Assembly: GCA_027007005.1 (NCBI GenBank)
Contig: JALTFO010000009.1
Location: 1 to 35,527, forward strand
From: Candidatus Bipolaricaulota bacterium
GTDB lineage: Bacteria > Bipolaricaulota > Bipolaricaulia > UBA7950 > UBA9294
Direction of reading: 5' to 3'
DNA length: 35,527 nucleotides
The position numbers and the translations under genes are program-made. The notes under the pieces were generated by a model. It ran no database searches. It was not told the DNA's origin and worked only from the letters and a program-made list of their open reading frames with translations. Numbering within the stretch: the stretch's first letter is position 1; each line of letters opens with the position of its first letter. This document shows, in pieces, positions 13,275-27,969 of this stretch.

Positions 13275-14444
13275 ATGAAGGTTCACGAATATCAGGCCAA
13301 GGAGTTGTTCTCTTCCTTTTCGATACCCGTTCCCGCAGGTCAGGTAGCCTCCACGCCACGCGAGGCAAGTGACGCCGCCGCCACGTTCTCCGGGCCGGTG
13401 GTGGTAAAGGCACAGATCTACGCTGGGGGGAGAGGGAAGGCTGGCGGGGTGAAGCTTGTTGATTCACCGAAGGCGGCGGAGGATGTGGCAAGAAAGATCC
13501 TCAATCATCCGCTTGTCACGCACCAGACAGGACCGGAGGGGCGGATGGTCAATCGCGTCCTTGTCGAGGAAGCAACGGATGTCAAGACGGAGATCTATCT
13601 TGGGATAACGATCGATAGATCTCACAGGCTTCCCGTGATCATGGCGAGCCCTGCCGGAGGGATGGAGATCGAGCAAATTGCCATGGATTCTCCGGAAAAG
13701 ATATTTAAGGAGTGGATCTCTCCAGAGATTGGCTTGCGCCCGTTTCAATCCTACCGACTTGCTCTTAAGCTTGGATTGAGTGCGCCGGAGACCAAACAGG
13801 TGGCCTTGATCATCGGGAATCTGTACCGCCTGTTTGTGGAGAAGGATTGCTCTCTGGTGGAGATCAACCCACTGGTCATAAGTAGCGATGGTGTGGCGAT
13901 CGCTCTTGATGCGAAGATCAACTTTGACGATAACGGTCTCTTCCGCCACCCGGAGATCGAGAAACTGCGCGACCCTAGCGAGGAGAATCAGCTAGAGCTA
14001 GAAGCAAAGAAGAACAACCTAAATTACATCAAGCTCGATGGTAATGTCGGTTGCCTGGTAAACGGCGCGGGCCTGGCGATGGCCACGATGGACTTGATCA
14101 AGCTTGCTGGAGCTGCTCCTGCCAACTTTCTCGATGTGGGAGGAAGCGCGAATGAGGAGATGATCCAGAAGGGTTTTTCGCTCCTATTATCAGATGCCGA
14201 TGTGAGAGCGGTGTTCATAAATATATTCGGTGGGATCCTACGCTGTGACATCCTTGCCCGTGGCATTGTTGCCGCTGTCAAACATCTTGAGGTAAACATC
14301 CCGGTGATCGTGCGTTTGGAGGGGACGAATGTTGAGGAAGGAAGAGAGATACTCGCTCAATCGGGGTTAGAGTTTCTTCGGGCGAAGGATCTCAACGAGG
14401 CCGCGACACTCATCGCTCAGGCGCTGCGGGGAGGAGAAGAATGA
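13275..14444 (+). CDS. sucC: Succinyl-CoA synthetase beta subunit
   Basis: With SucD it interconverts succinyl-CoA and succinate with nucleoside di/triphosphate. The 389 residues have the ATP-grasp N-terminus [20 protein letters not shown], the nucleotide-binding [19 protein letters not shown] segment ([12 protein letters not shown] type), LVEINPLVI with the metal-binding Glu/Asn, and the C-terminal CoA-ligase domain [18 protein letters not shown] and [12 protein letters not shown]. Length is normal (about 388). It overlaps sucD by 4 nt. In this cluster it links the 2-oxoglutarate oxidoreductase product to the fumarate reductase substrate and is the substrate-level phosphorylation step in the oxidative direction. 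Confidence 0.97.
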
Positions 14445-15307
14445 GCATTCTAGTTGACAAAGAGACACGTGTTTTGGTGCAGGGGATTACCGGCAGGGAA
14501 GGGAGCTTCCACACCCAGCAGATGCTCGCCTATGGGACGAACGTTGTAGCCGGAGTTACGCCGGGAAAGGGTGGACAGAGCGTACACGCTGTCCCAGTCT
14601 TCAACACCGTGGTCCAAGCGATGGTAGAAACCAAGCCGAACGCAGCGATGATCTTTGTACCTCCCAGGTTCGCTGCCGATGCCATTCTAGAAGCAGCAGA
14701 AGGTGGAATTGAGCTTGTCATCTGCCTTACTGAAGGTATCCCGGTGAACGACATGGTGCGTGTGCGCCGGTATCTTGATATTCGCGGCACAAAGCTCATT
14801 GGACCGAACACACCGGGGGTCATCTCGCCGGGCAAGTCGAAACTGGGGCTGATGGCCGGCTACATCCATCGCCAAGGTGGCGTAGGGGTGATGTCGCGCA
14901 GCGGCACGCTTACCTACGAAGCCGTGAATCAGCTATCGCAGCGGGGGATCGGGCAGTCGACGTGTGTGGGGATCGGGGGGGATCCGATCGTTGGTCTGTC
15001 ATTCACCGACCTGCTTGCTATGTTCGAGGACGATCCGCAGACAGAGGCAGTCGTGCTTATTGGCGAGATCGGCGGCAACGCGGAGGAGCAAGCGTCTCGT
15101 TACATCGCCGACAAATTCACCAAACCGGTCGTTTCGTTCATCGCCGGACGCACGGCGCCTCCCGGACGTCGCATGGGGCACGCAGGAGCGATTGTTACCG
15201 GCGGCACGGGTACGGCGACGGCGAAGATTGCCGCCTTAAGCGAGGCGGGAGTAACAGTTGTTGAGAGTCCAGCCCAGATAGGATCTGCAATAGCCGCTGT
15301 CATCTGA
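14441..15307 (+). CDS. sucD: Succinyl-CoA synthetase alpha subunit
   Basis: CoA-binding and phosphohistidine subunit. The 288 residues show [18 protein letters not shown] at the N-terminus, a Rossmann CoA-binding domain, [33 protein letters not shown], and the active-site [14 protein letters not shown] with the phosphorylated His. Length is normal. It ends 12 nt before the -35 box of the korC promoter, and no terminator lies between, so read-through into the next operon is likely. Confidence 0.97.
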
Positions 15308-15390: not shown

Positions 15391-15439
15391 GCCTGCAATA
15401 CAAATACACAAGTTGTCTGCGACAATGAGGAGCGAATCG

Positions 15440-15982
15440 ATGCGAATGGAGATTCGGTTTGCAGGTTTCGGCGGCCAGGGAGTGATTTCTGCCGCCAAAA
15501 TCTCTGGACGGGCCGCTGCAATCAACGATAACCTAAACGCTGTTCTAACCCAATCGTACGGCCCAGAAGCACGCGGCGGTGCGTGTAACGCTAATGTAGT
15601 TATCTCGCAAGAGAGGATTGCCTATCCAGAAGTAACACTTCCTAATCTTTTGGTAATTCTATCTCAGGAAGCGTACACCACCTTTGGTTCAACCATCGCC
15701 CCGGGAGGAACGTTGATCGTTGATGAGAACTTGGTCGACGTGGGCAAGGTTCCAACTGGCGTTCACCTGTACAAGGTGCCGGCAACGAAACTGGCGGAAG
15801 AGTTAGGAAACAGGATCGTCGCCAATGTGGTCATGCTAGGAGCGGTCGTAGCTATGACCGGTATGGTGAGCAAGAATGCGATGCTGGATTCGGTGCGCGC
15901 CTCGGTTCCTGCTCGCTTCCTCGAATTGAACGAGCGCGCATTTGAAACCGGCTACAACTACGGGAGGAAGCTGAAATCATGA
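15440..15982 (+). CDS. korC: 2-oxoglutarate:ferredoxin oxidoreductase gamma subunit
   Basis: Gamma chain of the four-part 2-oxoacid:ferredoxin oxidoreductase. The 180 residues begin MRMEIRFAGFGGQGVISAAK, the family hallmark (GxGGQG), and contain TQSYGPEARGGACNANVVIS. ATG 15440 is chosen because GAGGAG lies 7 nt upstream and the length then matches the family; the longer frame from 15326 runs through the promoter and operator. It overlaps hdrA by 4 nt. Its partners korD, korA and korB lie 8 kb downstream in the same operon, separated by the Hdr/Mvh/Frd genes. Specificity for 2-oxoglutarate is inferred from the sucCD, fumarase and Frd neighbours. Confidence 0.9.
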   Translation: MRMEIRFAGFGGQGVISAAKISGRAAAINDNLNAVLTQSYGPEARGGACNANVVISQERIAYPEVTLPNLLVILSQEAYTTFGSTIAPGGTLIVDENLVDVGKVPTGVHLYKVPATKLAEELGNRIVANVVMLGAVVAMTGMVSKNAMLDSVRASVPARFLELNERAFETGYNYGRKLKS

Positions 15983-17934
15983 GCCGAATCGGCGTCTTTG
16001 TCTGTCACTGTGGGATGAACATCGAGGAGACGGTCGACACACATCGGGTGGCGGATACGCTGAAGCTGTACCCCGGTGTCGTGCATGCGGAGGACTATGA
16101 TTACATGTGCTCCGAGATCGGGCAACAGAAGATCCGTGACGCGATCGTGGAACACAACCTGGATGGAGTGGTCGTCGCTTCCTGTACCCCGGCGATGCAC
16201 CAGGAGACGTTCCGCAATGCCGCCGAAGAAGTGGGGTTAAACCGTTATCGCTTAGAAGTGGCTAACATCCGCGAGCAGGTCAGTTGGGTCCATTCTGACC
16301 GGGAAGTGGCAACACAGAAGGCGATTCGCATGGCGCGAGCCGCGGTGGAAAAGGTCCGCGGGGATGATGATCTGGAGCCGATTGCTGTAGAGCACGAGAC
16401 TAAGTGTCTTGTCATCGGCGGCGGGATCAGCGGGATTCAGGCAGCAATCGATGTCGCCAACAGCGGCCATAAGGTAATCCTAGTGGAGAAGGATCCGAGC
16501 ATCGGTGGCCATATGGCACAACTGTCGGTCACATTCCCCACCCTTGATTGTGCTCAGTGCATCCTCACCCCGCGCATGGTGGAAGCATCGCGTCACCCGA
16601 ACATCGAGCTTCTCACCTACAGCGAAGTGGTAAAAGTCGCTGGCTTCATGGGAAACTATGAAGTAACGATTCGCAAGAACCCGACCTACGTAGACGCGGA
16701 CAAGTGCAACCTGTGCGATAAGTGCTCTGAGGTTTGTCCGGTAAGTGTGAAGGAGGAATTCAACGAGGGGCTCTCCGAACGCAAGGCGATCTACATGCCA
16801 TTCGAGCAGGCAATCCCCTCATCCTACGTGCTGGATGAGAATGCCTGCCTGGGGGTGAAACCGATCCGTTGCGGCCTCTGTCAGGATGTGTGCGATGTTG
16901 GGGCAATCAACTACGACATGGCCCCCGAAATGATTACCGAGAAGGTGGGGACGATCATCGTCGCCACCGGCTACGACGTGTACGATCCCAGCCACCTCAC
17001 CGAGTACGGCGGAGGGAAGTATCCCGACGTTGTAACCTCTCTTCAGTTTGAGCGGATGGTCCACCCCTCTGGCCCGATGAAGGGGCAACTGCGTCGGCCC
17101 TCCGATGGCAGGCCGGTGAAGAGCATTGCCTTCGTCCACTGTGCTGGCTCGCGTGATCCCGAAAGGCATAAACCTTATTGCTCGCGCATCTGTTGCACGT
17201 ACACTGCCAAACAGGCGCTCCTGTTCAAGAAAGGAGTACCTGATGGGGTGGCGAACGTGTTCTACATCGACATTCGCACCGACGGGAAGGGATATGAAGA
17301 GTTCGCGCAGGGGATCATCTCCGATAAGCGCCCTCGTTACATCAGGGGGAAGGTCGCCAAGGTCGTCGATGAGGGAGATCACCTCACCGTGTGGGGAGCG
17401 GATACCCTGAGTGGGAAACGGATGGAGATCGATGTCGACCTGGTTGTGCTAGCGATGGCCATGGTTCCCAGTGAAGGGACTGCTGAGTTGGCCAAGACGC
17501 TCCACATCAATGTCGACGAGAACGGTTTTCTCAAGGAAGCCCACCTCAAGCTGCGCCCGGTGGAGACAACGACCGCAGGAGTGTTCATTGCCGGCACGGC
17601 GCAAGGACCGAAGGATATCCCCGACTCGGTGGCGCAGGGAAGCGCGGCGGCAGCGAAGGCAATTGCCATCCTCTCCGCAGACGAGCTCAGCCACTCTCCC
17701 GAAGTGGCAGCGGTCGATGAACAGCTCTGCTCGGGGTGCGGGATCTGCGCGAGCGTCTGTCCGTACGATGCCATCAAGGTTGAGCGGTCAGGGATCGCAG
17801 TGGTGAATGAGATCCTCTGTTCGGGGTGTGGTGTCTGTGCCGCATCCTGCCCAGCAGGGGCGATCGAGGTCAAGAACGAGCGGCACGCGCAGATCGAAGA
17901 GATGATCGGCGTCGCGTTGGGAAGTGAGAAATGA
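15979..17934 (+). CDS. hdrA: HdrA, flavin-based electron-bifurcating subunit
   Basis: HdrA carries the FAD that splits electron pairs between a high-potential acceptor (via HdrBC) and ferredoxin. The 651 residues show an N-terminal domain with IGVFVCHCGMNIEETVD (Cys9, Cys11, plus Cys44 and Cys69), the FAD-binding LVIGGGISGIQAAID near 144-158, and a CAQC pair at 191-194. Inserted ferredoxin clusters are at Cys243/246/249/253 and Cys290/298/301/305. Two C-terminal [4Fe-4S] motifs are at Cys584/587/590/594 and Cys614/617/620/624. All cluster ligands appear intact and no Sec codon is needed. It is the standard single-copy form. 4-nt overlaps with korC and mvhD tie it to both. Confidence 0.95.
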   Translation: MSRIGVFVCHCGMNIEETVDTHRVADTLKLYPGVVHAEDYDYMCSEIGQQKIRDAIVEHNLDGVVVASCTPAMHQETFRNAAEEVGLNRYRLEVANIREQVSWVHSDREVATQKAIRMARAAVEKVRGDDDLEPIAVEHETKCLVIGGGISGIQAAIDVANSGHKVILVEKDPSIGGHMAQLSVTFPTLDCAQCILTPRMVEASRHPNIELLTYSEVVKVAGFMGNYEVTIRKNPTYVDADKCNLCDKCSEVCPVSVKEEFNEGLSERKAIYMPFEQAIPSSYVLDENACLGVKPIRCGLCQDVCDVGAINYDMAPEMITEKVGTIIVATGYDVYDPSHLTEYGGGKYPDVVTSLQFERMVHPSGPMKGQLRRPSDGRPVKSIAFVHCAGSRDPERHKPYCSRICCTYTAKQALLFKKGVPDGVANVFYIDIRTDGKGYEEFAQGIISDKRPRYIRGKVAKVVDEGDHLTVWGADTLSGKRMEIDVDLVVLAMAMVPSEGTAELAKTLHINVDENGFLKEAHLKLRPVETTTAGVFIAGTAQGPKDIPDSVAQGSAAAAKAIAILSADELSHSPEVAAVDEQLCSGCGICASVCPYDAIKVERSGIAVVNEILCSGCGVCAASCPAGAIEVKNERHAQIEEMIGVALGSEK

Positions 17935-18356
17935 GTGACGATACGGGATTTGAGCCGAAAATAATAGCATTTCTGTGTAAGTGGACGACCTATGCTGCTG
18001 CCGATCTGTGCGGAGTCAGCCGGATGCCGTATCCATCGAACATCTCCATCATCCGCGTCAACTGCACGGGTGAGGTGACAGCGGACATGATCCTATCCTC
18101 TTTTGCAAAGGGGGCTGATGGCATCCTCATCGGTGGTTGCCGGCCTGGACACTGTCGTTACGAGGATGGAAACCTCAAGGGATCAAACGGGGTCTACCTG
18201 CTGAAGCGAGCTCTGAAGGAATTCGGTGTCAACCCGGATCGAATTCGCGAGGTCGGCATTGCCGGTGCGCAGGGGTTGATCTTCCAACGGGCGGTGGAGA
18301 AGTTCACTGCCGATATTCGCGCCATGGGGCCGTGCCCGGTGATGTCCAATGCCTAA
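17931..18356 (+). CDS. mvhD: MvhD-like [2Fe-2S] subunit, one Cys changed
   Basis: MvhD passes electrons from the hydrogenase part (MvhAG) to HdrA. The 141 residues follow the family: FLCKWTTYAAADLCGVSR, MPYPSNISIIRVNCTGEV, GADGILIGGCRPGHCRYEDGN. The usual CNWCSY reads CKWTTY, so the second Cys of the first pair is Thr19. Cys16, Cys45, Cys70 and Cys75 remain, and an extra Cys27 stands where Ala is usual. Four ligands for one [2Fe-2S] cluster could still be supplied. It overlaps hdrA by 4 nt and mvhG by 8 nt. Confidence 0.88.
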   Translation: MSDDTGFEPKIIAFLCKWTTYAAADLCGVSRMPYPSNISIIRVNCTGEVTADMILSSFAKGADGILIGGCRPGHCRYEDGNLKGSNGVYLLKRALKEFGVNPDRIREVGIAGAQGLIFQRAVEKFTADIRAMGPCPVMSNA

Positions 18357-19242
18357 CAAGAAGACGTTGGCAATCTACACGGCCGGTGGGTGTGGTGGAT
18401 GTGGACAGTCGTTGCTATTGAGCCCTAATTTTGCCTCGTTGCTGGACAGGGTTGACCTTCTCTTCTGGGCGAGCTCCGCTTCCGACCTGACAGATGAGGA
18501 GATCTCGACTTACGATGACCGTGGGATAGATCTTCTCATCTATGCAGGCACCGTTCGCGGGAACGAAAGCATCGCTACGGCCAATCTCCTGCGCGCCAAG
18601 GCAAAGCGGGTCGTCGCTTACGGAGCGTGCGCGCACCTCGGCGGGCTGTGCGGACTAGCAAATGTCTATCCAGGAGCGCAGTTACGTGCTCTTCCTAGTG
18701 CCGACGGACAGTTTGTTCAGCCGCTCTCCTCAGTGATCGATGTTGACTACATCCTCCCGGGGTGCCCTCCGCCGCAGGAAATGGTGACAAGGATGGTGGA
18801 GGAGCTGTTCATATCCGATGTGCTCCCCAAAGAAGGGACAGTCTTTGCCTCGGATAAGGCGGTTTGCGCGCAATGCGATCGCAAACACGTGCATAAACCT
18901 CTCACCAGTATCAGAAGGTTTCATGCCGAACCGCCCGATCCGGAGATCTGCCTCATCGACCAGGGCTACATCTGCCTGGGGCCGGTGACGCGTGGTGGGT
19001 GCGGCGCCGTTTGCCTGAAGTCAAACCGCCCGTGCACTGGGTGTGCCGGGCCGGTAGCCGGAGTGCGGGATCAGGGAGGGGCAATACTGCACGCCCTTGC
19101 CTCCCTCGTCTCCTTCCCCGGTACCGATACAGGAAGAAAGGAGCATCAGGTGCTTGATTCGATACCGGATGTCATCGGCACAACGTACAAGTACTCCGCG
19201 GCCTCCTCGATCCTTAAAAGGAGGGTAAGCGATGGTAAGTAG
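18349..19242 (+). CDS. mvhG: MvhG-like NiFe-hydrogenase small subunit
   Basis: Electron-transfer subunit of F420-non-reducing hydrogenase. In 297 residues the proximal cluster ligands are all present (Cys15 and Cys18 in GGCGGCG, Cys94 in YGACAHLGG, Cys139 in PGCPPP). The C-terminal half has the Cys sets for two more [4Fe-4S] clusters: CAQC, then the stretch from EICL to PCTGCAGP with YICLGPVTRGGCGAVC. The Fe-S wire is therefore intact although the catalytic partner downstream is not. An electron donor must enter at or near this subunit. It overlaps mvhD by 8 nt and the mvhA-like gene by 11 nt. Confidence 0.9.
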   Translation: MPNKKTLAIYTAGGCGGCGQSLLLSPNFASLLDRVDLLFWASSASDLTDEEISTYDDRGIDLLIYAGTVRGNESIATANLLRAKAKRVVAYGACAHLGGLCGLANVYPGAQLRALPSADGQFVQPLSSVIDVDYILPGCPPPQEMVTRMVEELFISDVLPKEGTVFASDKAVCAQCDRKHVHKPLTSIRRFHAEPPDPEICLIDQGYICLGPVTRGGCGAVCLKSNRPCTGCAGPVAGVRDQGGAILHALASLVSFPGTDTGRKEHQVLDSIPDVIGTTYKYSAASSILKRRVSDGK

Positions 19243-20530
19243 AGTAATCAACCTTATCCCTGCGTTCGGCGAGGTCGTGCTGTGGAAGAAGGCGGGCCTT
19301 AGGGCGCGGGTTTCGGTGCCGGAAGGAGCCGCTGGCTTCTCATCGTTTATGCGCGGTCGGCTGGCCGAGGATGTTCCCCTTTACGTGCAGCGGATCGATG
19401 CCCATTGCGCTGTGCCGCAGCATTTGGCGGCGGTGAGTGCGCTCGATCGCTGCTATCACGTGGCGCCCCCGAAGAAGGCGATGGCCATGCGCCGAGCACT
19501 TGCTTATGCTGGTTTCTACTTCCATCACTTAGAGGAGCTGTTCTTGAGCCGCGTAGGTGGAAGCGACGGTATCTCGGGGTTGATCAGCACAGACGAATCG
19601 CTCTCAGCGGAGGATGTCTTCTCTGCCCTAAGCCTTTCACAGGGGTTGATCACGCTCCTTGGTGGGCGAGCGATCACCCCCGAGCGAGGGATCCCCGGTG
19701 GGCTGACATCTGGAATCAGCGGTGAGGCGATCGCTCAGGCGAAACGGGACGCTTCGAAGCTTCTCAGCTTTGCCCTGCAGGCAGAAGAGACCTTCCGCGC
19801 CTCCGGTGCAGCGTGGGTGAAGGCGCAGGAGCTCATCGTCCCAGCCTATTCCCTGGCCACGGTCGATGAGGAGGGAGCGATCAGCCTGTACGATGGCGAT
19901 CTGCGTATCGTCGATGAGCGTGGTAAGGAACTGGCAAAGGGCGAGGCAAATGGCATTCTGACCAAGCTCTTGGCCTGGAAGGAGGAGCTGCCACTTCGTG
20001 TTGGGCCTCTCGCCCGATTGAACGTCGGCAAGATCTCGACACCGCAGGCAAGATCACTCCAGGAAGAGATGTTAAGCGCGTTGGGGGAACCGCCGCTTCA
20101 CCTGCTCAGTGCAGGTCATTGGCAGACGGTGATCGAGCTCGTGCAGTCCTGCGAACTCCTTGCGCAGGCGCTAAACGACCTTGAGAGTGGAAACTCGGGT
20201 ATCACCTCTCCGCTTGGCGAGCCCGATGAGGGGACCGCAGCGATCGAGGGAGGAAACGGGACGACCGTCCATCGCTACGTGCTCGATGAACAGGGGATCG
20301 TTCAGGAGGCACAGGTCTTCCTCCCGCGGCGTGCGCAGGCTGAGAGCATCAATGCGTCCTTGGCATCTGTCATCGGAAGCGACGGTGAAGTCAGCGAGGC
20401 GACGATAGAAAGAATCGCTGACGTGATCCGCGCCCACCGTCCGGCGTTTGTTCCCACTGCTCCGCTCCCGCTACGAGTTACTCTGCGCGATGAGGCGGGG
20501 AACGCATCCCAGGAATGGAGGAGACCATGA
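19232..20530 (+). CDS. Degenerate NiFe-hydrogenase large subunit (MvhA-like)
   Basis: The 432 residues keep the large-subunit layout, but the metal site is lost. At the L1 motif the family reads RICGLCxVxHxLAAxxAxD. Here residues 54-72 read RIDAHCAVPQHLAAVSALD, so the first Cys is Asp56 and the conserved His is Gln63; only Cys59 remains. The C-terminal L2 motif DPCxxCxxH is missing: the protein ends LRDEAGNASQEWRRP with no Cys in the last 100 residues. There is thus no C-terminal maturation site and no NiFe cofactor, and no hydrogenase maturation gene is in the window. Infer a structural core for MvhG or a docking site for another donor, similar to the 49-kDa subunit of complex I. It overlaps hdrC by 4 nt. 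Confidence 0.82.
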   Translation: MVSRVINLIPAFGEVVLWKKAGLRARVSVPEGAAGFSSFMRGRLAEDVPLYVQRIDAHCAVPQHLAAVSALDRCYHVAPPKKAMAMRRALAYAGFYFHHLEELFLSRVGGSDGISGLISTDESLSAEDVFSALSLSQGLITLLGGRAITPERGIPGGLTSGISGEAIAQAKRDASKLLSFALQAEETFRASGAAWVKAQELIVPAYSLATVDEEGAISLYDGDLRIVDERGKELAKGEANGILTKLLAWKEELPLRVGPLARLNVGKISTPQARSLQEEMLSALGEPPLHLLSAGHWQTVIELVQSCELLAQALNDLESGNSGITSPLGEPDEGTAAIEGGNGTTVHRYVLDEQGIVQEAQVFLPRRAQAESINASLASVIGSDGEVSEATIERIADVIRAHRPAFVPTAPLPLRVTLRDEAGNASQEWRRP

Positions 20531-20958
20531 CCAAAAAGAAGCAGGCAACGGGCGAGGAACAACTCGCTCTCCTTGAGCTATCGATGGACGAGATCGTTGA
20601 TAAGATCGAGGAGCTCTCGGGTGAGAACGTATTTGACTGCTACCAGTGTGGAATGTGCTCAGCGGGCTGCCCGATGGCAGACGAGATGGATCTCCTCCCC
20701 AATCAGGTGCTACACGCGCTGCAGGTGAAGGATCCAGAGGTGATGAGCGCTAACTCGATGTGGATCTGCGCTAGCTGTTACACGTGCCAGGTGCGCTGCC
20801 CGAAGGGAGTGGATCTAGCCAAGGTGATGGAGGCGATGCGCCAGATCTACCTGCGCAAGCAGCTTGATAATGTCCCACTCGACGACCTTAGCCACCGTGA
20901 GATTCGCCACCTGCCGCAGATCGCGGTTGTCGCATCATTCAGAAAGAAGACCGGGTGA
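20527..20958 (+). CDS. hdrC: HdrC, iron-sulfur electron transfer subunit
   Basis: Carries electrons from HdrA to HdrB. From ATG 20527 the protein has 143 residues, with two complete [4Fe-4S] motifs: Cys38/41/44/48 (CYQCGMCSAGCPM) and Cys81/84/87/91 (CASCYTCQVRCP). ATG 20527 is preferred to ATG 20515 because GGAGGAG sits just before it and it makes the usual ATGA overlap with the preceding stop. There is no membrane anchor (it is not the HdrE/DsrM type), so the complex is cytoplasmic. It overlaps hdrB by 4 nt (GTGA). Confidence 0.93.
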   Translation: MTKKKQATGEEQLALLELSMDEIVDKIEELSGENVFDCYQCGMCSAGCPMADEMDLLPNQVLHALQVKDPEVMSANSMWICASCYTCQVRCPKGVDLAKVMEAMRQIYLRKQLDNVPLDDLSHREIRHLPQIAVVASFRKKTG

Positions 20959-21839
20959 AAGAATTGGAGAAATTAACGTATTTTCCTGGCTGTACATTGA
21001 AGGACACCGCGCGGGATTTCGAGATCTCGGGGATGGCGGTGATGGAGGCGCTTGGTTATGAACTGGAGGAGCTGGAGCGGTGGAACTGCTGCGGAACGGT
21101 CTTCTCCCTCACTGAGGATGATCTGATGCACCAGGTGGCCCCGGTGCGCGACCTGCTGCGAGCACAGGAGGCGGGATCAGAGGAGATCATCACCCTCTGC
21201 TCCATGTGCTACGCCACGCTCAAGCGGACGAGCCTGTTCGTGAACGGGAATCAAGAGCGGTTGGACAAGCTGAACGCGTTCATGAATAAAGAGGTCGATT
21301 ACGAGGGGAAGGTGAGCGTACACCATCTGCTCGAGGTTCTGCGTGACCGCATCGGATGGGAGAAGATCGAGGAGCGGATCACAAACCCCTTGGAGGGGCT
21401 GAACGTAGCTCCGTTCTACGGGTGCACCCTCCTGCGTCCTAAGGAGATCGCGATCGACGATACCGATGCCCCGACTGTGCTGCAGGACCTAACAACAGCG
21501 CTGTGGGCGACCCCGGTCGACTACCCCTACGCAGTGGAGTGCTGCGGGGCGTACCAGGTGGTCGATCATCGTGAGGTCGTTGTCGAGAGGACACACCGCA
21601 TTCTTAGCGCGGCGCGGCGGGCGGGAGCAGATGTGGTGATCGCCAGTTGTCCATTATGTCATCATAATTTGAGCGATACACAGAAGGAACTTATCCGGAC
21701 AATCCCCGATTACGAGGAGATGCCGATTATCTATTTCACCCAGCTGATGGCGCTGGCGTACGGCGTTGAGGCGGGGAAGATACCCGCCTCACTCAAGGCC
21801 AAAATAAAGCACCTTCAGACGGTCAAGGGGGAGGGATGA
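20955..21839 (+). CDS. hdrB: HdrB, CCG-domain subunit with noncubane Fe-S sites
   Basis: In methanogens HdrB holds the two noncubane [4Fe-4S] clusters that reduce the heterodisulfide. The 294 residues have both CCG domains intact: YFPGCTL, WNCCGTVFSL and LCSMCYATL; then FYGCTLLRP, VECCGAYQ and SCPLCHHNL. All Cys expected for two noncubane clusters are present. This bacterium is not expected to make CoM-S-S-CoB, so another disulfide, or direct transfer to FrdB encoded 1 nt downstream, is likely. Methanogen TfrB carries an HdrB-like domain fused to the iron-sulfur subunit of fumarate reductase, and the hdrC-hdrB-frdB order here resembles that fusion in split form. Confidence 0.93.
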   Translation: MKELEKLTYFPGCTLKDTARDFEISGMAVMEALGYELEELERWNCCGTVFSLTEDDLMHQVAPVRDLLRAQEAGSEEIITLCSMCYATLKRTSLFVNGNQERLDKLNAFMNKEVDYEGKVSVHHLLEVLRDRIGWEKIEERITNPLEGLNVAPFYGCTLLRPKEIAIDDTDAPTVLQDLTTALWATPVDYPYAVECCGAYQVVDHREVVVERTHRILSAARRAGADVVIASCPLCHHNLSDTQKELIRTIPDYEEMPIIYFTQLMALAYGVEAGKIPASLKAKIKHLQTVKGEG

Positions 21840-21840
21840 G

Positions 21841-22560
21841 ATGGCGAGTAAGAAACCAGAAAGAGAAATGATCCGCATTCATGTGATGGGGAAGACCTAC
21901 GAGGTTCCTGCTGGTCTGACGATCATGGATGCGATGGAGTATGCGGGCTACCGGTTCACGCGTGGGGCCGGTTGTCGATCGGGTTTTTGCGGTGCGTGTT
22001 CCACCGTCTATCGGCACGAGGGGGACTACCGGCTGCAGTTTGCCCTGGCTTGTCAGGAGACGGCGCAGGATGGGATGTACCTGGTACAGCTCCCGTTCAC
22101 CCCTGCTCCGCGGGTCAATTACGACATCGAAAAGATCAATCCCAAGGAGAATGTGCTCCTGCAGTACTACCCGGAGATAGCACGGTGCGTCTCTTGTAAC
22201 ACGTGTACCAAGGCCTGCCCGCAGGACATCCAGGTGATGGACTACATTCAGGCGGCGCTTAGAGGCGACATCGCGAAGACGGCGGAGCTATCGTTTGACT
22301 GCATCCAGTGTGGCCTGTGCAGCATGCGCTGTCCAGCCGACATCAAGCACTACCACATGGCGCAGATGGCGCGGCGCGTCTACGGGCGGTACATGTCACC
22401 GGTGCCACAACACCTTGAGGATCGCCTGCAGGAGATTGCGGAGGGAAAATTCGACGCTGAACTAGACCGGCTGGTCGGTATGAGTCGGGAGGAACTCGAG
22501 GCTGCGTATGCGGCCCGAGTGCGAGAGGAAGCACCAGCGGGGAGTGAGAGAAGTGAGTAA
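21841..22560 (+). CDS. frdB: Fumarate reductase-type iron-sulfur subunit
   Basis: The 239 residues contain a plant-type [2Fe-2S] domain (Cys45, Cys50, Cys53, Cys71 in GAGCRSGFCGAC...ACQE). Two full ferredoxin motifs follow, at Cys116/119/122/126 (CVSCNTCTKACP) and Cys154/157/160/164 (CIQCGLCSMRCP). Quinone-linked SdhB/FrdB has a [3Fe-4S] cluster because the second motif lacks one Cys; here that Cys is present, so two [4Fe-4S] clusters are predicted. With no SdhC/D-type membrane subunit in the operon, the protein should be soluble and linked to HdrBC, not to quinone. The C-terminal 70 residues are charged and helical. It overlaps frdA by 8 nt. Confidence 0.88.
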   Translation: MASKKPEREMIRIHVMGKTYEVPAGLTIMDAMEYAGYRFTRGAGCRSGFCGACSTVYRHEGDYRLQFALACQETAQDGMYLVQLPFTPAPRVNYDIEKINPKENVLLQYYPEIARCVSCNTCTKACPQDIQVMDYIQAALRGDIAKTAELSFDCIQCGLCSMRCPADIKHYHMAQMARRVYGRYMSPVPQHLEDRLQEIAEGKFDAELDRLVGMSREELEAAYAARVREEAPAGSERSE

Positions 22561-24214
22561 GAAGGGATTTGTCGGCGGTTACCCGGCGTACATGCGCGAG
22601 TCGATCGAAAAGGTAGAGGCGACAAGGAGCAAGCGGCTGAAGGAAGGGCCACTTCCCCCGATGAGCCCGGAGGAGAGGGAAGCGATCCTGGAACGCAACC
22701 ACCCCGACTACAAGCCGAGCGGGAAGCGAAAGCTGGCCCTAGGTCCTTCCGCTGGAGAGATGGTCCCACACGAGGTGGCGGATATCATCGAGTCGCACCC
22801 GGTGATCGATCCGCGCAGCGTTGATCTATCCAAGGTAGACTACGACGTTGATGTACTGGTTATCGGTGGCGGAGGAGCAGGGACAGTGGCGGCGATCTTC
22901 GCCCACGAGCAGGGAATACCTGTAGATCGGATACTGATCGTCACCAAGCTGCGGCACGGGGACTGCAACTCGATTATGGCGCAGGGCGGAATTCAGGCGG
23001 CGGATCGGCCACAGGACTCGCCCGCGATCCATTACTTGGACGTGATGGGGGGCGGGCATTATGCCAACAAGCCGGAACTGGTGCGAGCGCTCGTCAGCGA
23101 TGCTCCGGGGATCATCCGCTGGCACGAGGATATGGGCGTGATGTACGACAAGATCGATGGCGAGTACATGGAGGCGCACGGCGGTGGGACATCGCGCATG
23201 CGCATGCACTCGGCGAAGGACTACACGGGCAAGGAGACGTTCAACGCCATTCGCGATCAAGCACGCAACCTGAACATTCCTGTTCTCGAGTTCTTCCCAG
23301 CGGTGGAGTTGCTCCTCGACAAGCACGGGCACGCAGCGGGCGCGGTCGTTTACAACATTGAGACGGAGGAGTACCGGATCATCCGCGCCAAAGCGACCGT
23401 ATTGGCGACCGGCGGGTTCGGTCGTATCCACATACAGGGCTTCCCGACGACCAACCACTACGGAGCGACGGCGGACGGGCTGGTGATGGCCTACCGTGCT
23501 GGAGCGAACATCATCGACATGGATTCAGTGCAGTATCATCCGACGGGTGTCGCCTTCCCCGCGGCGATCCTTGGCCAATTGGCGACGGAGAAGCTGAGAA
23601 ACCAGGGAGCGATGCCGGTGAACAAGGACGGTGAAGCGTTCGTCTTCCCGCTCGAACCGCGCGATGTGGAATCTGCGGCATTCATCGAGGAGTGCTGGGT
23701 GAAGAACAAGGGGATCGAGACGCCGAGTGGGATCCGTGGCGTATGGCTCGACACCCCGATGATCGATGCGATTCACGGGAAGGGGACGATTAAGCAGGCT
23801 CTTGCAGCGATGTGGACGATGTGGCATCGGCATGATATCGACATCACGGTCGATCCGGCGCTGGTCTACCCCACGCTCCACTATCAGAACGGAGGGGTGG
23901 AGATCGATGCCAACGGTTACACCCGCGTTCCCGGCCTGTTCGCTGGTGGTGAGTGCGAGGGAGGAGTGCACGGGAAGAACCGGCTGATGGGAAACTCGCA
24001 GCTTGACTACAACGTGTTCGGTCGTCGGGCTGGTATCTCTGCTGGCAAGTGGGCAAAGGAGGCTAAAGTGGACGAATTGTCCCTGCAGCACGTGATTGAC
24101 TACGAGCAGGCGCTGGAGAAGGCCGGGATAGATACCGACCGCAAGGCGCCGATCATCCTCCCCGACTACCGACCGGAGAGCGTGCGTGAGCGGACACTCG
24201 GGCATCTGCTATGA
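22553..24214 (+). CDS. frdA: Fumarate reductase/succinate dehydrogenase-like flavoprotein
   Basis: Proposed to interconvert fumarate and succinate. From GTG 22553 it has 553 residues. About 98 charged N-terminal residues precede the FAD-binding DVLVIGGGGAG (from residue 100), which is unusual for FrdA. Active-site residues in place are Arg349 (TEKLR), His443 (PTLHYQNGG) and Arg477 (KNRLMGNS), with VQYHPTG at 326-332. The covalent-FAD His of SdhA/FrdA is replaced by Asn139 (DCNSIMAQGG), so FAD is predicted to be non-covalent. The TGxH-type His is absent (TGKET). The C-terminal helical domain is short. Related families (L-aspartate oxidase, AprA, TfrA) share these traits; the role is assigned from the sucCD and fumarase neighbours. 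GTG 22553 is chosen over the longer frame because it follows a purine-rich site and overlaps frdB by 8 nt. Confidence 0.82.
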   Translation: MSKKGFVGGYPAYMRESIEKVEATRSKRLKEGPLPPMSPEEREAILERNHPDYKPSGKRKLALGPSAGEMVPHEVADIIESHPVIDPRSVDLSKVDYDVDVLVIGGGGAGTVAAIFAHEQGIPVDRILIVTKLRHGDCNSIMAQGGIQAADRPQDSPAIHYLDVMGGGHYANKPELVRALVSDAPGIIRWHEDMGVMYDKIDGEYMEAHGGGTSRMRMHSAKDYTGKETFNAIRDQARNLNIPVLEFFPAVELLLDKHGHAAGAVVYNIETEEYRIIRAKATVLATGGFGRIHIQGFPTTNHYGATADGLVMAYRAGANIIDMDSVQYHPTGVAFPAAILGQLATEKLRNQGAMPVNKDGEAFVFPLEPRDVESAAFIEECWVKNKGIETPSGIRGVWLDTPMIDAIHGKGTIKQALAAMWTMWHRHDIDITVDPALVYPTLHYQNGGVEIDANGYTRVPGLFAGGECEGGVHGKNRLMGNSQLDYNVFGRRAGISAGKWAKEAKVDELSLQHVIDYEQALEKAGIDTDRKAPIILPDYRPESVRERTLGHLL

Positions 24215-24498
24215 AAGGTGAGACAGTGGACAAAGCAAACACGGGCAGTCGCTGGAACACAGCGAATGGGACGATCACCATCGTCGATGATCTGTGCAAG
24301 GGGTGCGGTCTGTGCATCGAGTTCTGTCCGATACAGGTTTTAGGGAAATCAGAGCACTTCAATGAGAAGGGGTATCATTATCCGGAGATGCTTGAGCCGG
24401 AGAAGTGTGTAAACTGTGGTTACTGCCAGCTCCTCTGCCCCGATTTTGCCATCTGGAGCGAGCGTGACGATAAACAAGAAGGTGAGAGGGATGAGTAA
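24211..24498 (+). CDS. korD: 2-oxoglutarate:ferredoxin oxidoreductase delta (ferredoxin) subunit
   Basis: Ferredoxin-like chain of 95 residues with two [4Fe-4S] motifs, Cys29/32/35/39 (CKGCGLCIEFCP) and Cys66/69/72/76 (CVNCGYCQLLCP), spaced as in KorD/PorD. It carries electrons from the thiamine diphosphate site to free ferredoxin. The 4-nt overlap with frdA and 8-nt overlap with korA place it between the fumarate reductase and KOR genes. An internal ATG-like alternative start is GTG 24226. Confidence 0.92.
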   Translation: MKGETVDKANTGSRWNTANGTITIVDDLCKGCGLCIEFCPIQVLGKSEHFNEKGYHYPEMLEPEKCVNCGYCQLLCPDFAIWSERDDKQEGERDE

Positions 24499-25636
24499 CA
24501 AGGATATCCTGGCTGGGGAGTACTTCCTAAACGGAGACGTTGCCTGCGCCGAGGGGGCGATAGCCGCTGGTTGTCGGCTGTTCGCCGGCTACCCGATCAC
24601 CCCGCAATCGGAGATCACCGAAAGGATGGCGCTCCGGCTACCCATAATCGGTGGCTATTTCCTCCAGATGGAGGATGAGCTGGCATCGATCGCTGCCATC
24701 CTTGGCGGAGCATGGGGAGGGATGAAGGCGATGACAGCTACCTCCGGCCCTGGATTCTCTCTGATGATGGAGAACCTCGGTCTGGGGATCATGACCGAGA
24801 CCCCATGCGTAGTCGTAGATGTACAGCGCGGTGGGCCAAGCACCGGCCTTCCGACCGCCACCTCGCAGGGAGACATGATGCAGGCGCGCTGGGGGACGCA
24901 CGGTGACCACGAGATCATCGCCTTTGCGCCCGCCTCGCCGCAGGAGATGTTCGACCAGACAGTGAAGGCGTTCAATCTGTCGGAGCACTTCCGACAACCA
25001 GTGCTGATCATGGCCGACGAGGTGGTGGGGCACATGATGGAGCGGGTGACTATCGACCCAGACAAGATCGAGATCTACCCGCGGCGCAAGCCGAGTGTTC
25101 CCTATGACAGGTTCTTACCGTATAAGGGTGGCGCCGACCTCGTCCCGGAGATGGCCTGCGCTGGAGATGGATATCGGATACATGTGACTGGCCTGACCCA
25201 CGACGAGCACGGCTATCCGGACCTGACGGTGGAGAGCCAGAAGAAGCTGATGGAGCGATTGATGAACAAGATCCGGTTGAACGCTGATGAGATAATCGAG
25301 GTAGAGGAAGAGAACACACGCGGTGCGGATGTCGTCCTCGTCACGTACGGGATCGCTGCACGCACATCGCTGCGGGCGATAGAACTGGCGGCGGAGAAAG
25401 GGATCAAGGTGGGGATGCTGCGGTTGATCACGGTGTGGCCGTTCCCAGCAAAGGAGGTGCGCGCGATCGCCGGTGAGGTGAAGGGGATCATCGTCCCGGA
25501 ACTGAACTTGGGCCAGATGGTGCGCGAAGTGGAGCGAGCTGTCGCTGGAAAGTGCCCGGTGCGCCTTGTTCCCCACGCTGGCGGCGGCTTACACCGGCCG
25601 GAAGACATCCTCGCAGCAATCGAGGAGGTGGCATAG
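24491..25636 (+). CDS. korA: 2-oxoglutarate:ferredoxin oxidoreductase alpha subunit
   Basis: The 381 residues contain the 2-oxoacid oxidoreductase signature GDVACAEGAIAAGCRLFAGY with YPITPQSEI, then MEDELASIAAILGGAWGGMK, TATSGPGFSLM and QRGGPSTGLPT. They match the KorA arrangement in which the gamma domain is separate (korC). The C-terminal transketolase-like domain (VVLVTYGIAARTSLRA) follows near residue 270. The start at ATG 24491 has GGTGAGAGG upstream and overlaps korD by 8 nt. korB starts on the next base after the stop. Confidence 0.94.
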   Translation: MSNKDILAGEYFLNGDVACAEGAIAAGCRLFAGYPITPQSEITERMALRLPIIGGYFLQMEDELASIAAILGGAWGGMKAMTATSGPGFSLMMENLGLGIMTETPCVVVDVQRGGPSTGLPTATSQGDMMQARWGTHGDHEIIAFAPASPQEMFDQTVKAFNLSEHFRQPVLIMADEVVGHMMERVTIDPDKIEIYPRRKPSVPYDRFLPYKGGADLVPEMACAGDGYRIHVTGLTHDEHGYPDLTVESQKKLMERLMNKIRLNADEIIEVEEENTRGADVVLVTYGIAARTSLRAIELAAEKGIKVGMLRLITVWPFPAKEVRAIAGEVKGIIVPELNLGQMVREVERAVAGKCPVRLVPHAGGGLHRPEDILAAIEEVA

Positions 25637-26521
25637 ATGAGACACGTTATGACCAAGCCCGTACCAGAGATGGTACAGGATGCCCATCATCCGCTGGAGC
25701 ACTACTTCAGAAGCGAGCGTCTACCGCACATCTGGTGCCCGGGATGCGGCCTGGGGACGTCTATGTCCTGCTTGGCAGCGGCGTTTGGCCACCTCAAGCT
25801 TGATGTAGATGATGTTTCCGTCGTCTCGGGGATCGGTTGTTCTGGCCGGCTCGCCGGTTACATGCGCCCCGATTCCTACCACACCACGCATGGGCGAGCC
25901 CTCCCGTTTGCCACGGGCTTGCGAGTAGCACTGGAGAAGACCAAGCCCGGCCACAAGGTGGTCGTGTTCAGCGGAGACGGAGACTTGTTCTCCATCGGAG
26001 GGAACCACTTCATCCATGCCGCGCGCCGAAACATCGACCTAAGTGTGTTCTGCGTCAACAATTTCAACTACGGGATGACCGGTGGACAGGTTGGACCGAC
26101 AACGCCTCTCGGATCAAAGGGGACGACGGCCCCCTACGGGATGTTCGAGCACCCGTTCAACCTCCCCTACCTTGCTGCCTCGTCCGGCGCCCCCTACGTT
26201 GCGCGGTGGACGACGCTGCACGTGCATCGTCTCCAGCAGGCGATGGAAGAGGCAATCCAGAAGCGTGGGTTCACCTTTGTGGAGATTATCGCTCCATGTC
26301 CGACTAACTACGGTCGCAAGAATGGGCTCCCTACCGGCCTCGACGAGATGCGCTACTACAGCGAGAAGGCAGTGATCGAGAACTTCGCCGATCCGAAGGA
26401 CGCAGACATCATCCCGGGCAAGGAATTCATCGTTGGTACGTTCGTAAACGAGGACAAGCCCGACTACCTGGAGATCTACGATAAATTCGTACGTGATCAC
26501 TTTGGAGGCAAAGAGAAGTGA
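25637..26521 (+). CDS. korB: 2-oxoglutarate:ferredoxin oxidoreductase beta subunit
   Basis: Thiamine diphosphate-binding chain of 294 residues. WCPGCGLGTSMSC carries cluster/TPP-side Cys residues. The TPP-Mg motif runs GDGDLFSIGGNHF to NNFNYGMTGGQ (GDG...N type), and TTPLGSKGTTAPYG is typical of KorB. It decarboxylates 2-oxoglutarate to succinyl-CoA with reduction of ferredoxin, or carboxylates succinyl-CoA in the reverse direction. Start and stop abut korA and overlap fumA by 4 nt. Confidence 0.94.
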   Translation: MRHVMTKPVPEMVQDAHHPLEHYFRSERLPHIWCPGCGLGTSMSCLAAAFGHLKLDVDDVSVVSGIGCSGRLAGYMRPDSYHTTHGRALPFATGLRVALEKTKPGHKVVVFSGDGDLFSIGGNHFIHAARRNIDLSVFCVNNFNYGMTGGQVGPTTPLGSKGTTAPYGMFEHPFNLPYLAASSGAPYVARWTTLHVHRLQQAMEEAIQKRGFTFVEIIAPCPTNYGRKNGLPTGLDEMRYYSEKAVIENFADPKDADIIPGKEFIVGTFVNEDKPDYLEIYDKFVRDHFGGKEK

Positions 26522-27378
26522 GCAGCGATGAGGTGATCGAGCACCTAGTCTCCGCGATCCGTCAGGCGGAGACGGTCCTTCCCCAGGACGTGGTCAGCGC
26601 CCTGAAACAGGCAAAGGAAGTGGAGAGCGGTGCTGCGCGTGTGCAGCTTGAGGCGATGTTGAAGAACGCCGATGCAGCGCGCGATGGGTCGATACCGATG
26701 TGCCAAGACACGGGTATTCAGAGCTTCATAGTGCGTGCCGGTGCCAAATTCCCGGGCCTCTCTGCACTGCGTTCACAGATCATCGCTGCCGTGCGGCGCG
26801 CTACATCCGAGGTGCCCCTGCGGCCGAACACGGTCCATCCGTTCACCGGGGACAATCCCGGCGACAACGTTGGCGAGCACATTCCCTATATCAGTTGGGA
26901 GATCGTTGATGGCGATAGCTGTGCGATCGACCTTTTGCCCAAAGGCGGTGGGAGCGAGAACTGCGCTGCACTGGGGATGCTCCCGCCCGGAGTGGGGATC
27001 AATGGAGTCAAGCGGTTCATCGTCGATCATGTGGTCGGCTGCGGTGGGAAACCGTGCCCGCCGGGGATCGTGGGCGTGGGGATCGGTGGAGGTGCCGATC
27101 TATCACTCAAGCTCGGCAAGCTGTCGCTGTTGCGCCCGGTCGGCTCCCGCCATCCTGAGGGGAAGATTGCGGCTTTAGAAGAGGAGCTGCGCGATCTGAT
27201 CAACGCTAGCGGGATCGGGCCGATGGGTTTGGGAGGAAGAACGACCTGCCTTGATGTGCACATTGAGTACGCGCATAGACACCCCGCCTCCCTTCCTGTG
27301 GGGATCGTCTATCAGTGTTGGAGCGATCGGCGAGCGCGGGTGACGATCGATGCTAGTGGAAAGATCGAGGTGACCTAG
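26518..27378 (+). CDS. fumA: Class I fumarase alpha subunit (split form)
   Basis: Oxygen-sensitive [4Fe-4S] fumarate hydratase, N-terminal (TtdA-like) chain of 286 residues. Three cluster Cys are seen in PMCQDTG, GSENCAAL and VVGCGGKPCPPGIVGVG; RPNTVHPFTGDNPGDNVG is also typical. The GTG start at 26518 overlaps korB (GTGA). It converts fumarate to malate together with the beta chain; L-tartrate dehydratase is the usual alternative for this family, but the neighbours favour fumarase. Confidence 0.92.
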   Translation: MSSDEVIEHLVSAIRQAETVLPQDVVSALKQAKEVESGAARVQLEAMLKNADAARDGSIPMCQDTGIQSFIVRAGAKFPGLSALRSQIIAAVRRATSEVPLRPNTVHPFTGDNPGDNVGEHIPYISWEIVDGDSCAIDLLPKGGGSENCAALGMLPPGVGINGVKRFIVDHVVGCGGKPCPPGIVGVGIGGGADLSLKLGKLSLLRPVGSRHPEGKIAALEEELRDLINASGIGPMGLGGRTTCLDVHIEYAHRHPASLPVGIVYQCWSDRRARVTIDASGKIEVT

Positions 27379-27969
27379 ATGGAACGTATACTCACTACAC
27401 CGATCTCGGAATCAGAGGCGCGTGACCTGCATGTGGGGGATGTGATATACATTACCGGCACGATCTTCACCGCGCGCGATGAAGCTCACCTGATGATGCT
27501 GGAAAAGGGAGAACCGTTTCCCGTAGATGGCCTAGCCGTTTACCACTGTGGCCCAGTCGTGCAAAAAAAGGATGGAAGGTGGAGGATCGTCTCTGCAGGG
27601 CCGACGACGTCGGCGCGGATGGAGATCTTCGAGGATCGCTTCCTGGAGAAGTTCCCGGTGAGGGTTATCATCGGCAAGGGGGGGATGGGCGAGAAGACAC
27701 TTGCTGCCCTCCACAAGGTAGGCGCGGTCTACACCCACTACACCGGCGGAGCGGGGGCACTCGCCGCGCGGGCGATCAGTGAGGTCAGCGATGTCCATTG
27801 GCTCGACAAGCTGGGGATGCCCGAGGCAGTGTGGGTCCTCTCCGTTGAAAAGTTCGGCCCGCTCACAGTGGCGATGGACTCTCACAGCGAGAGCCTGTAT
27901 AACACTGTAGGCAAGACGGTGAGCGAGAACATGAAAACGATCCATGACAGAATTGAAAGGAGCAAATGA
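27379..27969 (+). CDS. fumB: Class I fumarase beta subunit (split form)
   Basis: C-terminal (TtdB-like) chain of 196 residues, beginning directly after the alpha stop. It has LHVGDVIYITGTIFTARDEAH, VYHCGPVV, AGPTTSARM, IIGKGGMG and GAVYTHYTGGAGALAARAI, all standard for the beta domain. It overlaps the malic enzyme gene by 4 nt, consistent with malate being handed to that enzyme. Confidence 0.93.
   Translation: MERILTTPISESEARDLHVGDVIYITGTIFTARDEAHLMMLEKGEPFPVDGLAVYHCGPVVQKKDGRWRIVSAGPTTSARMEIFEDRFLEKFPVRVIIGKGGMGEKTLAALHKVGAVYTHYTGGAGALAARAISEVSDVHWLDKLGMPEAVWVLSVEKFGPLTVAMDSHSESLYNTVGKTVSENMKTIHDRIERSK

Follow-up and report, generated by a model that had tools for sequence, protein, structure and literature searches.

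A homologue of the [NiFe]-hydrogenase large subunit MvhA that has lost its metal site in an HdrABC–fumarate reductase operon of Bipolaricaulota

Described systems that come close to the locus reported here include the MvhAGD-HdrABC [NiFe]-hydrogenase (group 3c), the thiol:fumarate reductase TfrAB, the NuoD/49-kDa subunit of complex I, and the Elp-Hdr complex (ElpABC). In NuoD, the first Cys of the L1 motif is replaced by Asp, and to our knowledge it is mainly in the complex I lineage that a subunit has been retained after losing its NiFe site. ElpA of methanogens derives from FdhA by loss of the molybdopterin domain; it has a structural role in an Elp-Hdr complex that is active with F420H2 as its electron source (PMC12350162). 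A search of the open-access literature returned no description of a metal-free MvhA in an Hdr complex. Here we analyze an MvhA/VhuA-type large subunit lacking metal-site motifs, MvhA', which is encoded in a window of 35,527 nucleotides (the whole stretch of DNA that was analyzed) from a Candidatus Bipolaricaulota bacterium.

The mvhA' gene (19232..20530, 432 aa) lies on the forward strand, as do all of the neighbors described here, in an operon with the order sucCD-OGOR gamma-hdrA-mvhD-mvhG-mvhA'-hdrC-hdrB-tfrB-tfrA-OGOR delta-alpha-beta-fumarase. At the upstream end, sucC and sucD (13275..15307) were assigned by gene order and orthology to relatives, with names given by sequence recognition and not by family search; the gamma subunit of 2-oxoglutarate:ferredoxin oxidoreductase (OGOR; 15434..15982) was assigned by orthology and likewise named by recognition. 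These genes are followed by hdrA (15979..17934), identified by profile matches as the electron-bifurcating FAD subunit, mvhD (17931..18356), which encodes the [2Fe-2S] connector, and mvhG (18349..19242), which encodes the small subunit. Downstream of mvhA', family matches identify hdrC (20515..20958), hdrB with two CCG domains (20955..21839), a tfrB/frdB-like Fe-S subunit of a soluble fumarate reductase (21841..22560), and a tfrA-like flavoprotein of the fumarate reductase/succinate dehydrogenase type (22508..24214). OGOR delta, alpha, and beta (24211..26521; a match to the OGOR_delta family, with alpha and beta named by recognition) and the fumarase alpha and beta subunits (26518..27969; by orthology, with Fumerase_C for beta) complete the operon. 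As expected of HdrABC, HdrA has its FAD domain together with Fe-S ligands, CCG domains occur in HdrB, and HdrC is of the ferredoxin type. The adjoining MvhG, MvhD, and HdrABC give mvhA' the operon setting of group 3c. Relatives have the same operon, but with an intact MvhA and a maturation protease gene.

The tfrA frame begins 53 bases within tfrB (window positions 22508-22570). Because the tfrA N-terminus that overlaps tfrB holds a stop in the orthologues from G003 and G017, two of three other metagenome-assembled genomes (MAGs) that encode mvhA' (the third is G001), translation of tfrA probably begins later than the annotated frame, close to where tfrB ends.

Sequence and fold together make it certain that MvhA' is a homologue of MvhA. 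The protein matches PF00374 with an E-value of 1.5e-5 and 24.6 bits, slightly short of the 25.8-bit cut-off, the NCBIfam VhuA model with an E-value of 1.4e-27 and 96 bits (cut-off 800 bits), and the PDB MvhA sequence of 5odc with an E-value of 1.4e-24. It reaches neither curated family cut-off, and a profile search gave no match to PF00346 (NuoD/Complex1_49kDa). The top fold match was 5odc_F, obtained with an AlphaFold2 model of low confidence (five alignment rows only, pLDDT 58.6) that was used for the fold match alone and is too weak for pocket mapping.

We compared the metal-site motifs of 22 intact Mvh large subunits of Bipolaricaulota with those of the four metal-free orthologues, with HoxH-type enzymes alongside. 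The N-terminal RxxEGH motif (TRLEGHG) is absent from all four metal-free orthologues, and its position reads NLIPAFG in MvhA' (19250..19270). At the L1 position (19391..19426), intact relatives have RICGVCPEAHHF and the window has RIDAHCAVPQHL; the motif reads RIDAHCAVPQH, with the canonical RICGxC gone, and the other three MAGs have RLDTHC, RIDAHC, and RTGTD-P. The second L1 cysteine (C59) is present in three of the four orthologues; the G017 protein has neither L1 Cys (RTGTD-PVAAH). Within the GGRxxHPxxGxPGG motif (19661..19702), the His, which has a role near the proximal cluster, is a Thr (T149) in every metal-free orthologue, and the ExxRGxxxH loop reads EGGNGTTVH (20246..20272), the ExxRG arginine being gone in three of four. 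The ligands of the C-terminal DPCxxCxxH motif are deleted (20438..20464, here RPAFVPTAP), with RPAFVPT standing where intact relatives have DPCLACATH, and the segment EPWTYVKIPYLK, which is well conserved among those relatives, is also deleted. A C-terminal tail homologous to the extension that is normally cleaved by the maturation protease is still encoded (20465..20527).

Alignment with intact Mvh proteins, and the agreement of the orthologues from three MAGs, thus bear out the changed L1 motif and missing DPCxxCxxH described in an earlier note on this DNA, and confirm at the sequence level that MvhA' is without the NiFe metal site, four defining motifs being lost. By the same alignments, the ligand set is lost throughout the metal-free clade, though one L1 cysteine persists in three of its four members. 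Members of this clade keep 6-11 of 30 invariant metal-motif positions, compared with 23-24 of 30 in the HoxH-type enzymes, which are likewise distant from Mvh. Metal-motif positions were lost significantly faster than other invariant positions in only one of the four sequences; this test is weak because the entire MvhA' protein has diverged, and it is the loss of the ligands that carries the argument. Conservation within the clade extends to 10 of 35 former metal-site columns versus 127 of 397 in the rest of the protein. The lack of any special conservation in the pocket columns speaks against a new site for a small molecule; the earlier suggestion that the empty site might bind a different electron carrier is not borne out on this count, nor was a menaquinone pathway detected by the MqnA/MqnD and MenD profiles.

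Loss of the metal site is accompanied by loss of its maturation gene. In the intact operons of G004, G022, G005, and G016, a maturation protease gene lies between mvhA and hdrC (above the TIGR00072 cut-off in G004 and G022); it is absent from all four metal-free operons, and where these belong to the genus of the window, the mvhA' and hdrC frames overlap. The window's genome yielded no second match to PF00374, no HypD, and no HypF above cut-off, the answer to a check on hyp genes that had been proposed earlier, although at 92% completeness and 6.6% contamination missing genes could reflect assembly gaps and single absences are weak. MvhA' descends from MvhA yet has neither the metal ligands nor the maturation features of a hydrogenase, and it should not be annotated as one; annotation by the gene name MvhA would falsely predict H2 metabolism in the metal-free clade.

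We consider it likely, with a probability of roughly two in three, that MvhA' is a metal-free, maturation-independent protein that caps MvhG or serves as its scaffold in a complex of HdrABC, MvhDG, and the soluble fumarate reductase TfrAB. The metal ligands and processing site have disappeared, as has the neighboring protease gene, purifying selection still acts on the frame, the operon otherwise equals that of relatives with intact Mvh, every Fe-S ligand of MvhG is kept, the old metal pocket is not specially conserved, and neither a further hydrogenase nor HypD or HypF above cut-off turned up in the window's genome, to the extent that its assembly allows. ElpA, in a working Elp-Hdr complex, provides a precedent (PMC12350162). 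Retention of the MvhG ligands would be equally expected if the clusters serve folding alone. Genome G029 also weighs against a scaffold, since the same Hdr-Tfr operon occurs there without mvhG and mvhA (L082 1127-9865 and 11382-19895), so that the subunit is not structurally indispensable everywhere; an intact mvhGA pair with protease- and hyp-like genes lies about 8 kb upstream on the same contig.

The ancestral complex would have oxidized H2 at MvhA and passed the electrons first to MvhG, then to MvhD, and on to the flavin of HdrA, which would have split them between ferredoxin (for 2-oxoglutarate synthase) and, via HdrBC-TfrAB, fumarate; this scheme draws on the known Mvh-Hdr complex and on gene order. 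In the metal-free clade, H2 chemistry would have been abandoned, as H2 could not react at MvhA', and the complex would still act on ferredoxin at its HdrA end and on fumarate/succinate at its TfrA end. The MvhD-MvhG arm might then merely support the mobile arm of HdrA, or it might exchange electrons with a putative cytosolic protein docked at the old hydrogenase position.

All 12 conserved Fe-S cysteines of MvhG are present in each of the four copies from metal-free operons, so that an observation made earlier for the window alone holds for all of its orthologues, and a new cysteine, Cys101, is fixed in the clade. MvhD carries C19T and A27C in all four copies, the new Cys standing eight residues after Thr19. 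Cys19 is the second Cys of a CxxC; every intact relative that was examined has it, as do the five listed MvhD sequences of solved structure, and the second MvhD of G003 is canonical. No ligand loss of this kind is seen in HdrA, HdrB, HdrC, or TfrB. The best reading of these sequences is that the MvhD-MvhG Fe-S wire has been kept and remodelled in the metal-free clade.

A wire that is both altered and conserved leaves room for a new protein partner. MvhA' could be a new substrate or docking site at which a mid-potential donor or acceptor (a flavoprotein, a ferredoxin-like protein, or a small molecule) exchanges electrons with the proximal cluster of MvhG, a proposal that overlaps the second role of the arm given above and to which, as that role, we assign a possible but lesser chance. 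Retention of the 12 MvhG ligands in four divergent copies, the clade-fixed cysteine changes in MvhD and MvhG, and invariant clade-specific stretches of MvhA' such as RGRLAEDxPLYVQR and TPE are in keeping with it, and exchange of Hdr input modules is known, with F420H2 via ElpB and formate via FdhAB as analogues. A candidate donor gene is, however, absent from the operon, and the old pocket is conserved no more than the remaining protein. The complex might, with a similar chance, be an H2-independent bifurcating (or confurcating) ferredoxin/fumarate enzyme in which the dead NiFe subunit docks a new redox partner and the MvhD-MvhG arm is rewired. If true, this would be an independent conversion of a NiFe hydrogenase to a non-hydrogenase module, in a soluble flavin-bifurcating complex.

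Orthologues of mvhA' with the same loss are present in independent MAGs (G003, 59% identity; G001, 56%; G017, 48%). The metal-free clade is monophyletic in both the MvhA and MvhG trees (support 100/100), which is consistent with a single origin of the loss. Within the window's genus, MvhA' proteins are 56-66% identical and their neighbors except MvhG 83-95%; the MvhA of intact operons is conserved like its neighbors (81%, G004 vs G022). With one mis-registered tfrA comparison left out, dN/dS is 0.23-0.29 for mvhA', 0.03-0.11 for its operon neighbors, and 0.08-0.14 for MvhG, and synonymous divergence among mvhA' orthologues is approximately 1 or above. Judged by these ratios, selection on mvhA' is relaxed yet still purifying. 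The same loss in independent MAGs, four including the window's, together with dN/dS of 0.23-0.29, rules out both a sequencing error, which the earlier note had named as a possible refutation, and a pseudogene. Its view that the frame is maintained and not decaying is upheld by these ratios; the frame has no stop across 432 codons and overlaps mvhG (end 19242) and hdrC (start 20515). It is accordingly improbable that mvhA' is a decaying remnant, held only by translational coupling or because the loss is too recent for the gene to have been removed: dN/dS is approximately 2-7 times that of the neighbors and both overlaps could protect the frame, but the ratio is far under 1 at this synonymous divergence, the protein is full length in four genomes from two genera, and clade-specific blocks are conserved.

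Intact large subunits do occur beside the metal-free ones in other genomes. G001 and G003 retain Hyp proteins and an NAD-linked HoxH-type hydrogenase with its own HoxY, which is their only intact large subunit. Because an intact HdrA-MvhD-MvhG-MvhA set lies directly upstream of the metal-free set in G017 (L034/L050 1-10604), duplication is suggested as one route to metal-site loss. G003 holds another Hdr set (HdrA-like pieces, HdrB, and HdrC) plus MvhD, cut by a contig end (L095 1832-9389, G003:C2); its MvhG/MvhA partners, if any, are outside the assembly. No [FeFe] hydrogenase was found as an H2 route in six genomes, including the window's. These findings bear on a second possible refutation raised earlier, an intact MvhA elsewhere that pairs with this MvhG: no such partner was found in the window's genome, and the two other sets qualify that answer for G017 and G003. 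More doubtful than decay, then, is a pairing of intact MvhA with the MvhG of metal-free operons in which MvhA' acts as a regulatory or competing decoy; the adjoining set of G017 and the truncated set of G003 would allow it, but the intact G017 copy possesses its own MvhG and the window's genome is without another large subunit, HypD, or HypF above cut-off.

A NuoD-like quinone site within the soluble complex is scarcely credible: the first L1 Cys is Asp as in NuoD, the C-terminus is unprocessed, and the protease gene is lost, and in these points the parallel to NuoD drawn earlier reaches further than first described, but the Asp is missing in G017, the PF00346 match and a membrane subunit are absent, and MqnA/MqnD and MenD exceeded cut-off in none of four genomes in profile searches.

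As a separate observation, a complex-I-like cluster on contig C69 of G000 (L062, L087), and at L058 and L061, encodes a NuoB-type subunit (CTGCG replaces the tandem Cys), NuoC, and a NuoD-like subunit without cysteines (RxNVMD); after these comes a fusion of a dicluster ferredoxin with a GltD-like NAD(P) domain, and two profiles detected no menaquinone pathway alongside it.

Metal-free mvhA' is present in 4 of 100 Bipolaricaulota genomes. A contig scan with two conserved peptides found none outside this phylum, a search that distant cases would escape. G013 contains the tfrA-OGOR end of the operon and is uninformative on the input module, the stretch before it being partly masked (N; L081 upstream of 12876). 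The loss is recent and traceable, close relatives still having an intact MvhA in this operon, and it shows which parts changed: the ligands of the metal were lost along with the cleavage site and the gene for the protease, and the Fe-S wire was kept with its cysteines altered. It thereby becomes possible to test how a hydrogenase turns into a redox module without hydrogenase function, in a bacterial Hdr-fumarate reductase complex that should run with H2 in the relatives and without it in the metal-free clade.

Among known systems, MvhAGD-HdrABC shares its subunits and Fe-S wiring with this complex, MvhA' is homologous to its large subunit by sequence and fold, and intact versions occupy the same operon of relatives. 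It differs in that MvhA' has neither metal ligands nor a cleavage site, its operon lacks the protease gene, HypD/HypF were not found in the window's genome, and the metal-free complex would be partnered with a soluble fumarate reductase. TfrAB resembles the TfrA/TfrB-like proteins that adjoin HdrB/HdrC, but these score far under the equivalog cut-offs and their setting is a bacterial HdrABC-Mvh operon. NuoD has a homologous fold without NiFe site, an unprocessed C-terminus, a small Fe-S subunit as partner, and the same Asp in place of the first L1 Cys; unlike NuoD, MvhA' arose by an independent loss within group 3c in a soluble Hdr setting, and its operon has no NuoC or membrane arm, nor was a quinone pathway found with the MqnA/MqnD and MenD profiles. 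Elp-Hdr likewise retains a catalytic input subunit without its cofactor domain after a switch from the ancestral substrate, although ElpA derives from FdhA, a family unrelated to MvhA, and electrons enter at the FAD of ElpB (PMC12350162). ElpA in Elp-Hdr offers the closest known principle for MvhA'.
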